From a virus, in the IMG/VR virus record IMGVR_UViG_3300033553_000049, positions 1 through 44,874 of that record: 44,874 nucleotides of DNA. One strand, 5' to 3'. This document shows, in pieces, positions 1 through 44,874 of the stretch (positions within the stretch are counted from its first letter, which is position 1; each line of letters begins with the position of its first letter). The translations under genes and the position numbers were made by a program. The notes beneath the pieces are model-generated. The model saw only the letters and a program-made list of their open reading frames with translations, had not been told where the DNA came from and ran no database searches.

Positions 1-348
1 GGCGGGATCATCGGGCTGCTCGTCGCCTTCCTCAAGGAGCGCGAGAACCTCGGTCAGATACCCGATCCCACCCGAGAACCTCGGCCCGACGACCCCGGAC
101 CCGCGGCGCTGATCGCAGCAGCGACCAACGGCAACCCGCCGGTCCCCGTGCCCGTACCCGCTCCCGCTCCCGTCCCCGTGCCCGTACCCGTTCCCGTGCC
201 CGTACCCGTCCCCGTTTCCGTTTCCGTTTCCGTGCCCGTACCCGTTCCCGTGCCCGTGCCCGTACCCGTTCCCGTTCCCGTACCCGTACCCGTCCCCGCT
301 CCCGTTTCCGTTCCCGTTCCCGTTTACGACGCCGATAAAGTTATTTAG
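1..348 (+). CDS. Open 5'-partial frame with C-terminal Pro-Val repeat tail
   Basis: The frame is open from the first base, so any start lies outside the window. The first 15 or so residues are hydrophobic ([15 protein letters not shown]), followed by an acidic, proline-rich linker and then about 30 Pro-Val, Pro-Ala or Ser-Val dipeptides encoded by a hexamer repeat, ending in YDADKVI. I do not recognise a family. Bases 1-141 are clearly richer in GC than the rest, and the frame runs on the strand opposite to the neighbouring early operon, overlapping its last gene by 8 bp. The repeat alone would give an open frame in several phases, so this may be non-coding repeat DNA joined to an unrelated or chimeric contig end rather than a phage gene. 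Confidence 0.25.
142..321. repeat. Hexamer tandem array, 30 units of GTNCCC
   Basis: Thirty consecutive 6-bp units follow GTNCCC, with variants GCTCCC and GTTTCC, and run without a break. Read on the minus strand this is a run of GGG tracts separated by three bases, the classical spacing for G-quadruplexes. The last 20 bases of the window carry the same motif (CCCGTC repeated), so the array probably joins the two ends. It lies just beyond the last gene of the left early operon and upstream of the late region on a circular map. Confidence 0.9.
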
Positions 349-721
349 CTTTGGCATGGGGCGCACCTTCAAGGCTTGCGATTGCAACGTCGCTGCATGG
401 CGTGATTTCGATTGCCTCAAGCCATTGGGCTGGAACGGGCGGGGCGATATTGCTTTTGTCGTGCTTTACGCCGTACAATGCCACGCCTGACAGGCTAATC
501 GAATCAGCGGCCCACCATTGCCACATGCGCCGCGCCGAAGTCAAAATAACTTCATTGCCAGATTTTTCGGATAACGTGCCAAACCACACCCCTGCGGAAT
601 AGGTGCGGATAATGACCTTTTTACCAATCATGCCGTTAAGCCCTGGTGTGGATGTATTCCCGCCCCCAAAGAAGGCGGCCAGTTCCTTAGCTTGTCCGAT
701 AGTCAAATCGTTGATGTTCAT
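341..721 (-). CDS. DUF6948-like phage protein
   Basis: A 126-aa protein of unknown function. The central segment with KKVIIRTYSAGVWFGTL, followed by RRMWQWWAADSISLSGVALYGV, matches the conserved core that I know from DUF6948 proteins of tailed phages and prophages. No membrane segment or catalytic motif is visible. The start at 721 has a good ribosome binding site (GAGGAAA about 7 bases upstream). It is the last gene of the minus-strand early operon, and its stop lies about 20 bp from the hexamer array. The 151 bp upstream (722-872) hold no convincing gene. Confidence 0.75.
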   Translation of the reverse strand: MNINDLTIGQAKELAAFFGGGNTSTPGLNGMIGKKVIIRTYSAGVWFGTLSEKSGNEVILTSARRMWQWWAADSISLSGVALYGVKHDKSNIAPPVPAQWLEAIEITPCSDVAIASLEGAPHAKAK

Positions 722-872: not shown

Positions 873-1355
873 TCACTTTATGAGATCCAGCAAAAGCTGC
901 TCAAATTTAGGTTGGACCTTTGGGTCGGTGGTGGCGTAGGCGGTGGTGTAGGCGGCGATGTCGCACGGCGAGCTGATGGCGGCGTAGGCGGCGGCGATGG
1001 TGGCGTAGGCGGCGTTGGCGTAGGCGGCGTAGGCGGCGTCACGAGCTTTCATCCGAATAGATGGGTCCCTGGTCTCGAGATAACGTCGAACGATGTCAGG
1101 CATATTCCAGAGATGAGAAACCTGTAGGGCGAAGTCGCAAGCAAGTTTACGTATCTCTTGATCCCGATCTTGGAAGACTCGGAGACACCAAAGGGTGTCT
1201 TGCAAACCGTTCGACGCGAAGACCGTCGTTAACAGTAAAGGCTCGTCGTCAGGAGACACCTTGTTGAGGTGAGTCAGAAGTTTGATCCAACCACTCTGGC
1301 ATGGGCGGTGCTCCCGTATTTCATTCAAGGTTGTGGTGTAAGGTTTGTTGGACAT
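873..1355 (-). CDS. Phage 'immunity-like' protein with Ala-Tyr repeats
   Basis: A 160-aa protein. The N-terminal half, around YTTTLNEIREHRPCQSGW and the segment DEPLLLTTVFASNGLQD, belongs to a widespread, uncharacterised phage family whose members end in long alanine-rich helices (AWAAARAAAR-type repeats) and are sometimes labelled putative immunity proteins. Here the repeat is AYAAYANAAYATIAAAYAA. The frame stays open upstream to 1457, but I place the start at 1355. It is preceded by GAGGGATTGAG, by a promoter at 1389-1417, and by a leader nearly identical to that of the gene at 11379, so this gene has its own early promoter. No enzyme motif is seen. Confidence 0.6.
   Translation of the reverse strand: MSNKPYTTTLNEIREHRPCQSGWIKLLTHLNKVSPDDEPLLLTTVFASNGLQDTLWCLRVFQDRDQEIRKLACDFALQVSHLWNMPDIVRRYLETRDPSIRMKARDAAYAAYANAAYATIAAAYAAISSPCDIAAYTTAYATTDPKVQPKFEQLLLDLIK
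932..1040. repeat. Degenerate GTAGGCGGC repeat inside the Ala-Tyr repeat gene
   Basis: About ten imperfect copies of a 9-bp unit, GTAGGCGGC or close variants, encode on the minus strand the alternating Ala/Tyr segment of the 160-aa protein. The units are interrupted by short unrelated codons, including a Ser-Pro-Cys-Asp break. Such arrays commonly vary in copy number among related phages. Confidence 0.7.
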
Positions 1356-1388
1356 TTGCTCAATCCCTCTGTTTTGTTTCGATGCCCC

Positions 1389-1417
1389 ATAATGCCAAAT
1401 TGGTTTTGTTCCGTCAA
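1389..1417 (-). promoter_or_regulatory. Sigma70-type early promoter, copy 1
   Basis: On the minus strand TTGACG (-35) is separated by exactly 17 bases from CATTAT (-10). The downstream leader contains GCATCGAAACAAAAC and GAGGGATTGAG just before the start codon at 1355. The whole block recurs on the plus strand at 11318-11381, with the same spacer length and the same leader, which strongly supports function. Confidence 0.75.
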
Positions 1418-1443
1418 TAACTATTTTGCACGAATGCAAAGAT

Positions 1444-1770
1444 TTATTTCGGCGCATCCCCTGTAATAGCGGATTCGATCAGGGCGCTGTAAATGCGGCA
1501 TACCTCAGTGCGGTTTTCCGTCGGTTTCAGTATTGCGCCCGTCATTTCTTGCGTTGCCTCCCTTGGCACCACCACAATGCCGCGCTGTGCGAGACTATCC
1601 TCATAGGCCATGATAGCGAATAGGGCAGCCTTTTCATACAAACTCCAAGCTGAAACTGTTTCGTAAGGACTGTCAAACCCCTTTGGATATTGCGCGTCTG
1701 GGTTTGTACCCGGCGGCATATCAGCCGCGAAAATCGCCCGCGCTACAGCCTCAATATCCGCGTCAGTCAT
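1444..1770 (-). CDS. Hypothetical phage protein (108 aa)
   Basis: I do not assign a function. The N-terminus (MTDADIEAVARAIFAAD) and the motif YEKAALFAIMAYED resemble small acidic early proteins common in alphaproteobacterial phages. The protein looks soluble and mostly helical, with no cysteine cluster or membrane segment. The start at 1770 is supported by AGGAG 8 bases upstream. The stop at 1444 lies upstream of the promoter at 1389-1417, so this gene ends the upstream transcription unit and the next gene starts from its own promoter. About 80 bp separate it from the replication gene upstream, including a GCCCC/GGGGC inverted repeat near 1798-1819. Confidence 0.55.
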   Translation of the reverse strand: MTDADIEAVARAIFAADMPPGTNPDAQYPKGFDSPYETVSAWSLYEKAALFAIMAYEDSLAQRGIVVVPREATQEMTGAILKPTENRTEVCRIYSALIESAITGDAPK

Positions 1771-3189: not shown

Positions 3190-3411
3190 TCAGGTTCCGT
3201 TGACACGTTCGGCCCGCACCTCAGCCTTTGCCCATGCCCTCAATTCCTTGGTATTCATAATGCGGTTGCGTACCTTGTGAGTGCCGTCCGGGCGGGAATA
3301 TACCTTGTAGCCGCGCTTTCGGATGGCGACAATCATATCATGCGTTAGGCTTGGCTCTGCACGGTTAGGGTAGGTGTATGTTTTTCCGGCTGCGCTGACT
3401 ATTGTAATCAT
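3190..3411 (-). CDS. Hypothetical small phage protein (73 aa)
   Basis: The start at 3411 gives an ATGA overlap with the stop of the upstream GcrA-like gene, implying translational coupling; the frame is open further upstream but only as antisense of that gene's coding sequence. The product begins MITIVSAAGKTYTYPNR and is basic and soluble, with an alternating pattern compatible with a small alpha/beta fold (DMIVAIRKRGYKVYSRPDG). It ends in a Lys/Arg/Glu helix. I do not recognise the family. Co-translation with GcrA-like protein hints at a linked role but does not establish one. Confidence 0.55.
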   Translation of the reverse strand: MITIVSAAGKTYTYPNRAEPSLTHDMIVAIRKRGYKVYSRPDGTHKVRNRIMNTKELRAWAKAEVRAERVNGT

Positions 3412-4013
3412 TTCTCGAACCCCACAAAATTGAGTTTTTTCTTTGGCCGTGGCGTCCAGCATCGGGCGTGATGTTCCTGGCAATAGCTTGATCCGCGCTG
3501 TTTAGCGATACCGCAATGCGCCGCCTCAATCTCGGGAACGCTCATGCCGGGGACAATATGGCCTTCGATCCATTCGCACCCGCCAGGAACGCGCTGGGGA
3601 GCCGCTATAGCATCATCGGGGAAGTAATCTAGTATGCTCACCGCCTCGATAACAGGCACGATTGCAGGGGCCGTCTTAGCCGCCCTATGGCGAATGCTCT
3701 TGATAGGGGAGTTTACCGCCCTAGTCTTGCCAAGCCTGAAAAGACGCCCGATAACCTGATTTTTATTCAGGCCCATCATTGATGCAATCATTGACCGCGT
3801 TAGTCTTTGATCGTCGGCATAGCGCAAAAGCACCGCGTCCATTTCAGGCGTCCAAGTAACCTCATGCGCCGGGCGCACAACAATGCCGATTTGTTTTATG
3901 GCCTCAGATACGTTCCATGCTTGAATTCCGATTGTTTCAGCTATTTCTTTGAGGTTGCATCCCTCATTCCAGAGCCGCTTAATCTGCATTTTTCTTTGTT
4001 CAGATATTTTCAT
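3408..4013 (-). CDS. gcrA: GcrA-like cell-cycle transcription regulator
   Basis: A 201-aa protein with GcrA organisation. In alphaproteobacteria GcrA is a sigma70 partner that activates promoters carrying methylated GANTC sites. The N-terminal 40 residues hold one HTH (QRKMQIKRLWNEGCNLKEIA) and a second HTH follows at about 53-95 (WTPEMDAVLLRYADD, then NKNQVIGRLFRLGKT). The C-terminus carries the GcrA-type Cys/His cluster, CGIAKQRGSSYCQEHHARC. The duplicated N-terminal HTH is longer than the host protein's single one. A phage copy could redirect host promoters that depend on methylation, which is notable beside a DNA methylase gene two genes downstream. Family assignment is strong; the target is inference. 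Confidence 0.8.
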   Translation of the reverse strand: MKISEQRKMQIKRLWNEGCNLKEIAETIGIQAWNVSEAIKQIGIVVRPAHEVTWTPEMDAVLLRYADDQRLTRSMIASMMGLNKNQVIGRLFRLGKTRAVNSPIKSIRHRAAKTAPAIVPVIEAVSILDYFPDDAIAAPQRVPGGCEWIEGHIVPGMSVPEIEAAHCGIAKQRGSSYCQEHHARCWTPRPKKKLNFVGFEK

Positions 4014-9908: not shown

Positions 9909-10213
9909 TGCCCCGCCCCCTTCATAGCTGCGTTGCCTAGTGGCGTGTCGGCAAGCTGGCCTAGCGCGTTGCGATATAGTTCAAGGATGGCCTCCTGCTC
10001 TTGACGGGCGGAAACGTCCATCTTGCGTTCGCGGATTATCATTTTCAGGATTTTCACGTCGAAGCCTGAGCCTTTGGCCTCCGAGAATACCTCCCGAATG
10101 TCGGCTTGCAGTGCCGCCTTTTCGGCTTCCAAACGCTCCACCCGTTCAATGAAAGACCGGATGCGGTCGCCAGCGATACCGCCGGAATTGTGGCCTATGT
10201 TAGTCATTGTCAT
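9905..10213 (-). CDS. GapR-like nucleoid-associated protein (DUF2312)
   Basis: A 102-aa protein with the DUF2312/GapR core: RIRSFIERVERLEAEKAAL, then DIREVFSEAKGSGFDVKILK, then IIRERKMD followed by EQEAILELY. In Caulobacter and relatives GapR is an essential alpha-helical dimer/tetramer that encircles overtwisted AT-rich DNA ahead of forks and aids topoisomerases. The core spans about residues 15-90. The start may be 10213 or the second ATG at 10207; both keep the motif. A phage copy could support replication of phage DNA or compete with host GapR. It overlaps the repeat-protein gene by 4 bp (ATGA). Confidence 0.85.
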   Translation of the reverse strand: MTMTNIGHNSGGIAGDRIRSFIERVERLEAEKAALQADIREVFSEAKGSGFDVKILKMIIRERKMDVSARQEQEAILELYRNALGQLADTPLGNAAMKGAGQ

Positions 10214-11046
10214 TTATACTCTTTCCACATAATCAATTTACCGCGATTGACGGTATACCAGATATTCGGCTTAACGCCATTTTCCCCGATTTTCCCGGTG
10301 ATAAACCCGCGGCATTCTCCTTCGTTATTATATTTTGCAAGCGAAAACATCGTTCCAGCGACCCCTTTAATTCTCGCCCCATTACCACACGCTGAAATAA
10401 CTGACGCCAAGCCAGTGCATTCATGACTGGTGTAGTCCCCGCTGCTGGCGTTCTGGGTGTGGTTCCCGCTGCTGGCGTTCTGGGTGTTGTGCCCGCTGCT
10501 GGCGTTCTTGGTGTTGTGCCCGCTGCTGGCGTTCTTGGTGTTGTCCCCGCTGCTGGCGTTCTGGGTGCTGTACCCGCTGCTGGCGTTCTGGGTGTAGTCC
10601 CCGCTGCTGGCGTTCTGGGTGTGGTCCCCGCTGCTGGCGTTCTGGGTGTTGTGCCCGCTGCTGGCGTTCTGGGTGTAGTGCCCGCTGCTGGCGTTCTGGG
10701 TGTGGTTCCCGCTTATTTTTCTTTCTTTCGTATGGTTAATTAGCCATCTAACGCAATCCTGTATAAAATCCCCTAGAGATAATTCAGCTTCAAAATGCAA
10801 AATAGACGATGCATTTTTGTCTGCTTCCCTTTTTATATATCCCGATTGCGTGACTTTCCCAAAACGATGACCCCCAGAGATATCATAAAATCCCCAGACA
10901 TCCATAGGATTATCACATGCATGAAACCCACTTCTACAGACATCAACGTCACCTGCATGCTTATAAGTTTTCCCAACTTCGTATTGGAACCCGAGACATT
11001 TAAGGTCTTTGTCAAACCCTTTGTATGCTACTATTTTTTTTGTCAT
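10210..11046 (-). CDS. DUF7666-like phage protein with 9-residue repeat domain
   Basis: A 278-aa protein. The N-terminal 110 residues (VAYKGFDKDLKCLGFQYEVG, then CRSGFHACDNPMDV) match a phage family I know as DUF7666. The middle (about 110-210) is a tandem repeat of nine residues, SG-x-x-T(Q/K)NAS, about ten complete copies, where the two x positions vary among H, D, N, Y and S. The C-terminus (GVKPNIWYTVNRGKL) is conserved in relatives, which carry similar Gly-Ala-Ser repeats of variable length. The repeat likely folds as a beta-helix or beta-solenoid. Function is unknown. It lies directly downstream of the Cro-like gene, so it is among the first left-early proteins. Confidence 0.65.
   Translation of the reverse strand: MTKKIVAYKGFDKDLKCLGFQYEVGKTYKHAGDVDVCRSGFHACDNPMDVWGFYDISGGHRFGKVTQSGYIKREADKNASSILHFEAELSLGDFIQDCVRWLINHTKERKISGNHTQNASSGHYTQNASSGHNTQNASSGDHTQNASSGDYTQNASSGYSTQNASSGDNTKNASSGHNTKNASSGHNTQNASSGNHTQNASSGDYTSHECTGLASVISACGNGARIKGVAGTMFSLAKYNNEGECRGFITGKIGENGVKPNIWYTVNRGKLIMWKEYK
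10429..10713. repeat. 27-bp tandem repeat, about ten and a half units
   Basis: On the plus strand each unit contains CCCGCTGCTGGCGTTC followed by a TKGGTG segment and a variable GTN region. Apart from five positions the copies are identical over ten units. The variable positions fall at the first base of one codon, the first and second bases of the next, and the first base of a Gln/Lys codon of the minus-strand gene. The near identity implies recent amplification or ongoing homogenisation. Confidence 0.9.
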
Positions 11047-43931: not shown

Positions 43932-44411
43932 CTATAGCTTGTAAAATCCAACCAATGATGAAAGCGCCCCGGCAATCAATGCCTTTGTCTCTGTGTTTGC
44001 GCGTCCGTTTGCCGCATTGATAGGCTCACCAAGGCCAACATGCGCCTCTAGCAATGCCCCTGCCCTTGTGCCTACATGTGCGAGTGCCAAAACTACGCTT
44101 GTTTGCGCGTTGCGCTTTACGCGCTCAATCTTGGCAGTATATTCGTCTGTGGCCTCAATTCCTCTAATAGCCCCATAAGACGATTGTGCGTACTTCGGAG
44201 CCAGCTTTGATTTGAAATAATCTGTTTCAAAACGATCCGCCGCGCCAAGTTCGCGCTCGTTTATTTCACGGTTTTTGAACATGCGCTCGATAAGCCCAAC
44301 GCGCCGTATTCTCTTGTCACCCGCCGTCATATTGGCATCTTCAATAACAAAAAGATGATTTTTCAACGTAAATTCAATACGGTAATCTTCCTTATGCGTT
44401 GGCTTGCCCAT
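43932..44411 (-). CDS. Hypothetical basic protein upstream of terS (159 aa)
   Basis: The start at 44411 has a very strong GGGGAGGT site. The N-terminal half (MGKPTHKEDYRIEFTLKNHL; IRRVGLIERMFKNREINERE) is charged, and the middle contains GAADRFETDYFKSKLAPKYA. The C-terminal 60 residues are Ala/Leu-rich and helical, ending ALSSLVGFYKL. The 'AADRFxxDY....L.PKY' plus later helical tail is reminiscent of alphaproteobacterial DUF6456-type regulators, but this is a weak comparison. It is followed by the late promoter, so it may be a regulator of the late switch. Confidence 0.45.
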   Translation of the reverse strand: MGKPTHKEDYRIEFTLKNHLFVIEDANMTAGDKRIRRVGLIERMFKNREINERELGAADRFETDYFKSKLAPKYAQSSYGAIRGIEATDEYTAKIERVKRNAQTSVVLALAHVGTRAGALLEAHVGLGEPINAANGRANTETKALIAGALSSLVGFYKL

Positions 44412-44874
44412 CTTTTTTACCTCCCCATAAAACAGGAAAGGCTATCGTCAGTTTAGTTCCCATGCTTAATTTTATCAAAACACAAACCCCTTTCCTTCGT
44501 TAGTATCGGCGGGCAGTCGTTCTAAGCGTCCATTCGCCAGACCTAGGCTAGTGAGAGGACAGGGAGGGAACCCGCCCTTGACGCCGCATGAGAGTTCCCC
44601 CTCGCCCGCCGATTGAATTGGTGTGTGAAGTGCGGCTATCGTTACCTGCAAGCCCAACCCGACACGCCAAATCCGTATCCCGTTGTTGCTATAAGACGGC
44701 AATTTACACGACGGGCAAACTCAGCCGAATAATTATGTGCGGGGCTTCCCACCCCAGCTTGTCCGGTCAGGTTGCAGCCCACCGGATATTTTGACATTCT
44801 CTCAAGTCGTCAAGTCTATTCTACCAAATCAGGCCGATATGGCAAGGGTATTTACCCGTCCCCGTCCCCGTCCC
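44412..44874. other. 463-bp non-coding right end with structured repeats
   Basis: No convincing gene is present; the open frames lack start support. Visible elements are a 10-bp inverted repeat (44505-44514 with 44604-44613), a hairpin GGGG..CCCC near 44737-44751, CCGGT..ACCGG near 44768-44790, a GACTTGAC direct repeat near 44805-44815, and terminal CCCGTC hexamers. It probably contains a control region for late genes and, with the hexamer array at 142-321, spans the joined genome end. Confidence 0.6.
44505..44613. ncRNA. Candidate structured RNA closed by a 10-bp stem
   Basis: ATCGGCGGGC and GCCCGCCGAT are perfect complements 89 bases apart. Inside, GGGAAC (44566-44571) pairs with GTTCCC (44594-44599), and GCGTC/GACGC pairs are also possible. 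The nested, GC-rich organisation is unlike the flanking sequence. The strand is unknown. I cannot match it to a known RNA family with certainty. Confidence 0.35.

Follow-up and report, generated by a model that had tools for sequence, protein, structure and literature searches.

The window, an entire virus record of 44,874 bases, carries a period-6 array at its left end (TRF score 199) and 3.3 copies of CCCGTC at its right end (Table 1). The pattern GTNCCCx4 occurs 12 times in the window and its reversed control pattern not at all, which places the array far above chance expectation. A sequence-only reading had described 30 uninterrupted GTNCCC units at 142-321. The 30-unit array is real but is not uninterrupted, as 23 of the 30 units fit strictly, three read GCTCCC and four GTTTCC. 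That reading suggested a DNA signal with selected G-runs and a varying fourth base; the array is instead coding. On the minus strand each unit is GGG-NAC, i.e., Gly-[Asn/Tyr/Asp/His] with a few Ser codons, and the varying base is no free spacer, as it opens the second codon of each Gly-X pair.

The gene upstream on the same strand is a clear member of the DUF6948 family (PF22253; E 1.5e-28, 99.1 bits against a Pfam cut-off of 27). The repeat frame overlaps the last 14 nt of this gene, its ATG lying 14 nt before the DUF6948 stop codon in the +1 frame, and the same start offset (-14) is found in L013-L017, L019, L020, L521, L522 and L525. From the comparisons set out below, the array very probably encodes a small low-complexity (Gly-X)n protein, here called GX, whose gene is paired with DUF6948; this confidence attaches to the gene and its pairing and does not extend to function. 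In the window protein X is Asn, Tyr, Asp, His or Ser, and in relatives it is mostly Ser, Tyr or Asp, and also Asn. GX itself has neither a fold nor a family of its own.

Table 1. Features of the window discussed in the text
Feature	Position	Strand	Details
Probable chimeric extension via repeat	1..141		GC, GC3, no relatives, absent from GX homologues
GX gene, 5' part	142..357	-	ATG 357-355, 11 residues, then 30 Gly-X units (translation)
Period-6 array	145..324		30 copies; full extent 142-324
DUF6948 (PF22253) gene	341..721	-	126 aa; predicted Sm/LSm-like barrel plus N-terminal helix
AAGGTG, Shine-Dalgarno-like site	364..369	-	6 nt before GX ATG
Gene with Ala/Tyr-rich repetitive tail	873..1457	-	
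GcrA-like domain gene	3408..4013	-	PF07750, E 5.7e-9
DUF7666 gene	10210..11046	-	PF24703; 27-bp tandem array 10429-10713
Non-coding stretch	44412..44851		between GX stop and start of DUF6456-like gene (43932-44411, -)
Inverted repeat	44505..44614		beside GX stop
GX gene, 3' end	44852..44874	-	GGG GAC GGG GAC GGG TAA (GDGDG stop); TAA 44854-44852
CCCGTC repeat, right end	44855..44874		3.3 copies

Because the GX frame opens at the left end and reaches its TAA at the right end, with an ending that resembles those of its relatives (most of which stop at the array end, in the GX frame), the two contig ends are most simply parts of one gene, inside which the assembly broke. Three earlier suggestions hold up here: the same repeat does lie at both ends, as two parts of one reading frame; the repeat explains the contig stop, the break falling within the GX gene; and the two ends belong together, since their joining would result in one minus-strand gene series that runs from DUF6948 through the GX stop to the DUF6456-like gene and TerS. 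The arrangement is most simply explained by a circular phage map, with the contig cut within the GX gene, which is therefore not readable end to end in the window. The joined ends agree with locus L218, where homologues of window genes 5208 and 4252 lie upstream of TerS and point the same way. A search of viral contigs found no relative for the right-end gene (43932-44411), and no RNA family at the junction matched Rfam. The inverted repeat beside the GX stop has a 10-bp closing stem (ATCGGCGGGC/GCCCGCCGAT) and a minus-strand folding energy of -50.4 kcal/mol (z -2.06; no Rfam match), and could be an unlisted RNA.

The first 141 bases require separate treatment. The minus frame is open across them and the assembly includes them in the contig, as would be expected if they encoded a genuine 47-residue non-repeat insert between two arrays of the GX gene. 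We consider this unlikely, because the insert occurs in no relative, because the GC content of the segment (70%, against 52% for the window) and its GC3 (0.81, against 0.45-0.64 for phage genes) are unlike those of every phage gene tested, and because an exact 28-nt repeat inside the array offers assemblers a possible crossing point. A short-peptide search found no relatives of the segment in viral or genome contigs, and nothing like it was present in the GX homologues examined. Bases 1-141 are thus probably a chimeric extension and not part of the phage gene.

The pairing of GX with DUF6948 was examined in both directions. Viral contigs searched for exact GTNCCCx6 matches yielded at least 120 stretches. 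Among the matches listed, many lie near contig ends, and on the G-rich strand the arrays usually start no more than tens of bases from the stop codon of a gene on that strand, nearly always a homologue of the window gene 341-721. In a scan of 66 sequences, namely the window gene and the 65 distinct ORFs of 70-260 aa that precede arrays among these matches, 41 matched DUF6948 directly in Pfam, and two more distant subgroups were joined to it by profile comparison (97.5% and 98.0% probability). The DUF6948 superfamily accordingly makes up 60/65 of the ORFs preceding GGGNAC arrays among the matches listed, against 1/243 control loci (CCCNTG arrays, 0/43; GANCCC arrays, 1/120; TerS hits, 0/80; Fisher p ~1e-56). 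In the reverse search, 29 DUF6948 loci were collected by protein similarity alone with arrays ignored, and in all 27 with downstream room DUF6948 is followed or overlapped by a G-rich repetitive ORF. It is nearly always (Gly-X)n; the repeat is of another kind in L040 and L041, and in L018 it is degenerate and only loosely Gly-X. Some of the loci counted are near-identical, e.g., L028-L030. A Pfam scan of 754 genomes (385 alphaproteobacterial and 369 gammaproteobacterial) yielded two DUF6948 genes, both alphaproteobacterial and both also with a G-rich ORF at this place; none was found in the 369 gammaproteobacterial genomes, in a search run without a positive control. The array itself gave no BLAST hit in phages or plasmids, probably through low-complexity filtering.

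Among the named records examined, seven of eight have a GX ORF, and MW202478 (L523) has a DUF6948-like gene without one. In Pectobacterium phage Sabo the GX ORF is already annotated (CDS0035, overlapping CDS0034), in Iodobacter phage PhiPLPE it is present and unannotated, and for Chlorobiaceae phage CV-1-33 the record annotates a Met-Ala frame in its place. The gene is often missed or mis-framed, and it breaks assemblies. The records with the pair span Alpha- and Gammaproteobacteria, Neisseria, Chlorobiaceae and Clostridia, with scores of phages among them. A fusion was seen in a Monoglobus plasmid record (NZ_OY725740; L528, 2770-3531), where a 253-aa protein that combines GX with a C-terminal non-repeat domain overlaps the DUF6948 gene. 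The pair also occurs, with no gene annotated at the site, in NZ_CP119142 (L526), a 2.17-Mb record labelled as a Neisseria gonorrhoeae plasmid; the label is probably wrong, since the record is chromosome-sized.

GTNCCC arrays are also common in Streptomyces, Myxococcota and Rhizobium (L242-L357), in every coding frame and in intergenic sequence. These general bacterial repeats were considered as relatives and rejected, because they occur in all frames, have another unit make-up and are accompanied by DUF6948 in 0/116 loci. They are a separate, unexplained repeat class.

What is conserved across the paired loci, as judged by comparing their sequences, is the reading frame: a start codon, a Shine-Dalgarno-like site, (Gly-X)n and a stop. 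Each of the 73 superfamily loci with an array has a start codon close to the DUF6948 stop, an ATG in 63 of them, and most of these starts lie between -16 and +10 nt of that stop. By a loose pattern, 48 of these 73 starts have a Shine-Dalgarno-like motif. The stop falls at the array end in 43 of 57 closed frames, and elsewhere in about a quarter. The residues are kept while the codons change, Gly being GGC in most relatives and GGT or GGG in others, and Ser being TCC, TCT, TCA or AGC in different phages. Within arrays, silent third positions vary at 3% and the two amino-acid-changing positions of the X codon at 29% and 32%. We infer that this variation reflects turnover of whole hexamer units from few founders, together with selection for mixed X. 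A diversity-generating retroelement was considered as the source of the N/Y/D/H/S variation and rejected, as only a few residues are used and not the full spread expected of adenine mutagenesis, and as no reverse transcriptase was noticed.

The same comparisons bear on three other readings of the array. According to the first, it is a G-quadruplex DNA or RNA element whose G-runs are selected, for example a terminus, packaging start, fork barrier or virion fold. GGGNAC runs are indeed quadruplex-capable, and the quadruplex-forming GGGNATC repeats of Xanthomonas and Nostoc are enriched intergenically, frequently no more than 50 bp from a stop codon (PMC4692102). The window array likewise is a G-run tandem repeat close after a stop codon; however, the Xanthomonas and Nostoc repeats are mostly intergenic and G-run based, whereas the window repeat is coding and its G-runs are dispensable. 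Only 2 of 25 scored homologous arrays use GGG, and the third base of the Gly codon is C in 22 of the 25. A downstream quadruplex motif of four runs of G3 or longer is kept in 4 of 35 DUF6948 loci. The G-runs are thus not selected, relatives having mostly GGC or GGT, and in the window they are a consequence of glycine being written GGG; it is the codons, the frame, the start and the stop that are conserved. Nothing in the sequence supports a terminus, packaging start or fork barrier, and we regard a quadruplex element as extremely improbable. More generally, hexamer arrays at contig ends are easily misread as DNA signals.

According to the second reading, the plus-strand frame 1-348 is a gene and the array encodes its (Val-Pro)n tail. 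Plus frame 1 is open for 115 codons, but every frame through the window repeat is open. The Val-Pro ORF has no homologue and collides with the end of the DUF6948 gene, and a Val-Pro reading would be lost on the opposite strand of GGC-type relatives. The probability of such a gene is close to nil. The third reading is that GX has no start of its own and extends the C-terminus of DUF6948 by ribosomal frameshifting, which would fit the +1 frame and overlap with the DUF6948 end found in 25 of 48 close relatives. It is very unlikely, given that relative frames 0, +1 and +2 all occur and that a GX start codon is always present, often with a Shine-Dalgarno-like site. A separate GX gene, with its own start, thus remains the preferred reading.

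The Pfam entry for DUF6948 gives a domain of unknown function and nothing more. The AlphaFold model of the window protein contains a confident barrel (pLDDT 90.2), and its best 50 PDB matches in Foldseek are all Sm/LSm chains or spliceosome entries holding them (probability 0.98-1.00), at E-values of 2e-3 to 1e-2 (best 2.2e-3), all above 0.001. A distant DUF6948 subfamily, folded separately into a likewise confident model, also matched mostly Sm/LSm structures, including 3by7, with a designed-cage entry on top. Viral matches at E <0.001 were three DUF6948 proteins plus two phage proteins that are uncharacterised. No PDB chain matched the A2 profile of DUF6948 at E <= 1. Since the Foldseek E-values exceed 0.001 and PDB sequence matches are absent, the Sm assignment rests on predicted structure. 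In 49 DUF6948 sequences G44 and G48 are invariant (cf. the Sm1-like AGVxxGxL), and no conserved D-x-x-x-N pocket was seen by eye. We predict that DUF6948 is an Sm/LSm-like barrel, as a claim about fold only. DUF6948 was also considered as a defence system and had no PADLOC match.

Other genes of the window have features of their own. The DUF7666 protein contains about ten 9-residue repeats, SSG[HDYN][YNHS]TQNA, encoded by a 27-bp tandem array, and the residues that vary in it form the same set as those varying in GX. The GcrA-like domain suggests an alphaproteobacterial host for the phage. The protein with the Ala/Tyr-rich tail (AAYAAYANAAYA) has a homologue (48%) in L013, a locus that also has DUF6948-GX.

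We propose a function for the pair by analogy. Sm-like DUF6948 and a detached low-complexity (G-[YSDN])n partner may constitute a translationally coupled two-gene module, whose products would be made in coupled amounts and act together. GX would then be a detached multivalent tail for an Sm-like nucleic-acid-binding ring, and the ring with GX might draw RNA or ssDNA together in early replication and recombination. Pooled neighbours of the loci include Sak4-like, RecT, ERF and Bet annealing proteins, RecE-type exonucleases, SSB and terminase, counted without a background rate. We put forward this joint action tentatively, as a possibility on the doubtful side. With similar reserve, the pair could be an unrecognised phage module in which an Sm-like protein and a rapidly diversifying (G-[YSDN])n protein form a nucleic-acid condensate or scaffold in infection.

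It is also possible, if rather doubtful, that GX acts independently of DUF6948, as a silk-like extracellular, virion or ice- or metal-binding protein, the linkage being merely operonic. (Gly-X)n resembles silk-type dipeptide repeats, and the DUF7666 protein is a second N/Y/D/H/S-variable repeat protein in the same phage. However, the overlap with a single Sm-like family, and a linkage to it that is nearly universal among distant phages, point to a joint role, and neither a signal peptide nor a virion neighbour of GX was evident by eye. Whichever function applies, a dipeptide-repeat gene is tightly linked to one family of predicted Sm-like proteins and is apparently unnamed so far; no description of the pairing or of an Sm-like fold for DUF6948 was found in the literature searched. 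The GX partner gene and the predicted fold are added here to what is recorded for the family, and the pairing provides a handle on DUF6948 and on whether phages use Sm-like proteins with low-complexity partners.

Finally, we note the parallels with known Sm-like systems. Eukaryotic SmD1 and SmD3 carry Gly-Arg tails. The 3by7 structure, a structural genomics entry presumably of phage or marine metagenome origin, is Sm-like and matches the fold of the second DUF6948 subfamily (Foldseek E 2.9e-3; TM 0.70 by target, chain E) at ~14% identity. The C-terminal tail of the Sm-like protein Hfq is amyloid-like and reshapes ssDNA, which has implications for replication and recombination (PMC10392684), and it is by analogy with this tail that a detached low-complexity partner is proposed. 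In yeast, the Q/N-rich tail of Lsm4 and Edc3 are reported to act jointly in P bodies and in mRNA stability (PMC5087693). As in Hfq, Lsm4 and SmD1/SmD3, an Sm-like barrel, here a predicted one, is associated with a low-complexity stretch. Unlike those proteins, DUF6948 has no profile match to known Sm sequences, and its low-complexity part is a separate overlapping gene that encodes (Gly-X)n with Tyr, Ser, Asp and Asn. If the proposal is true, DUF6948 and GX would be a phage counterpart, present in many phages, of Sm/LSm proteins with low-complexity tails.
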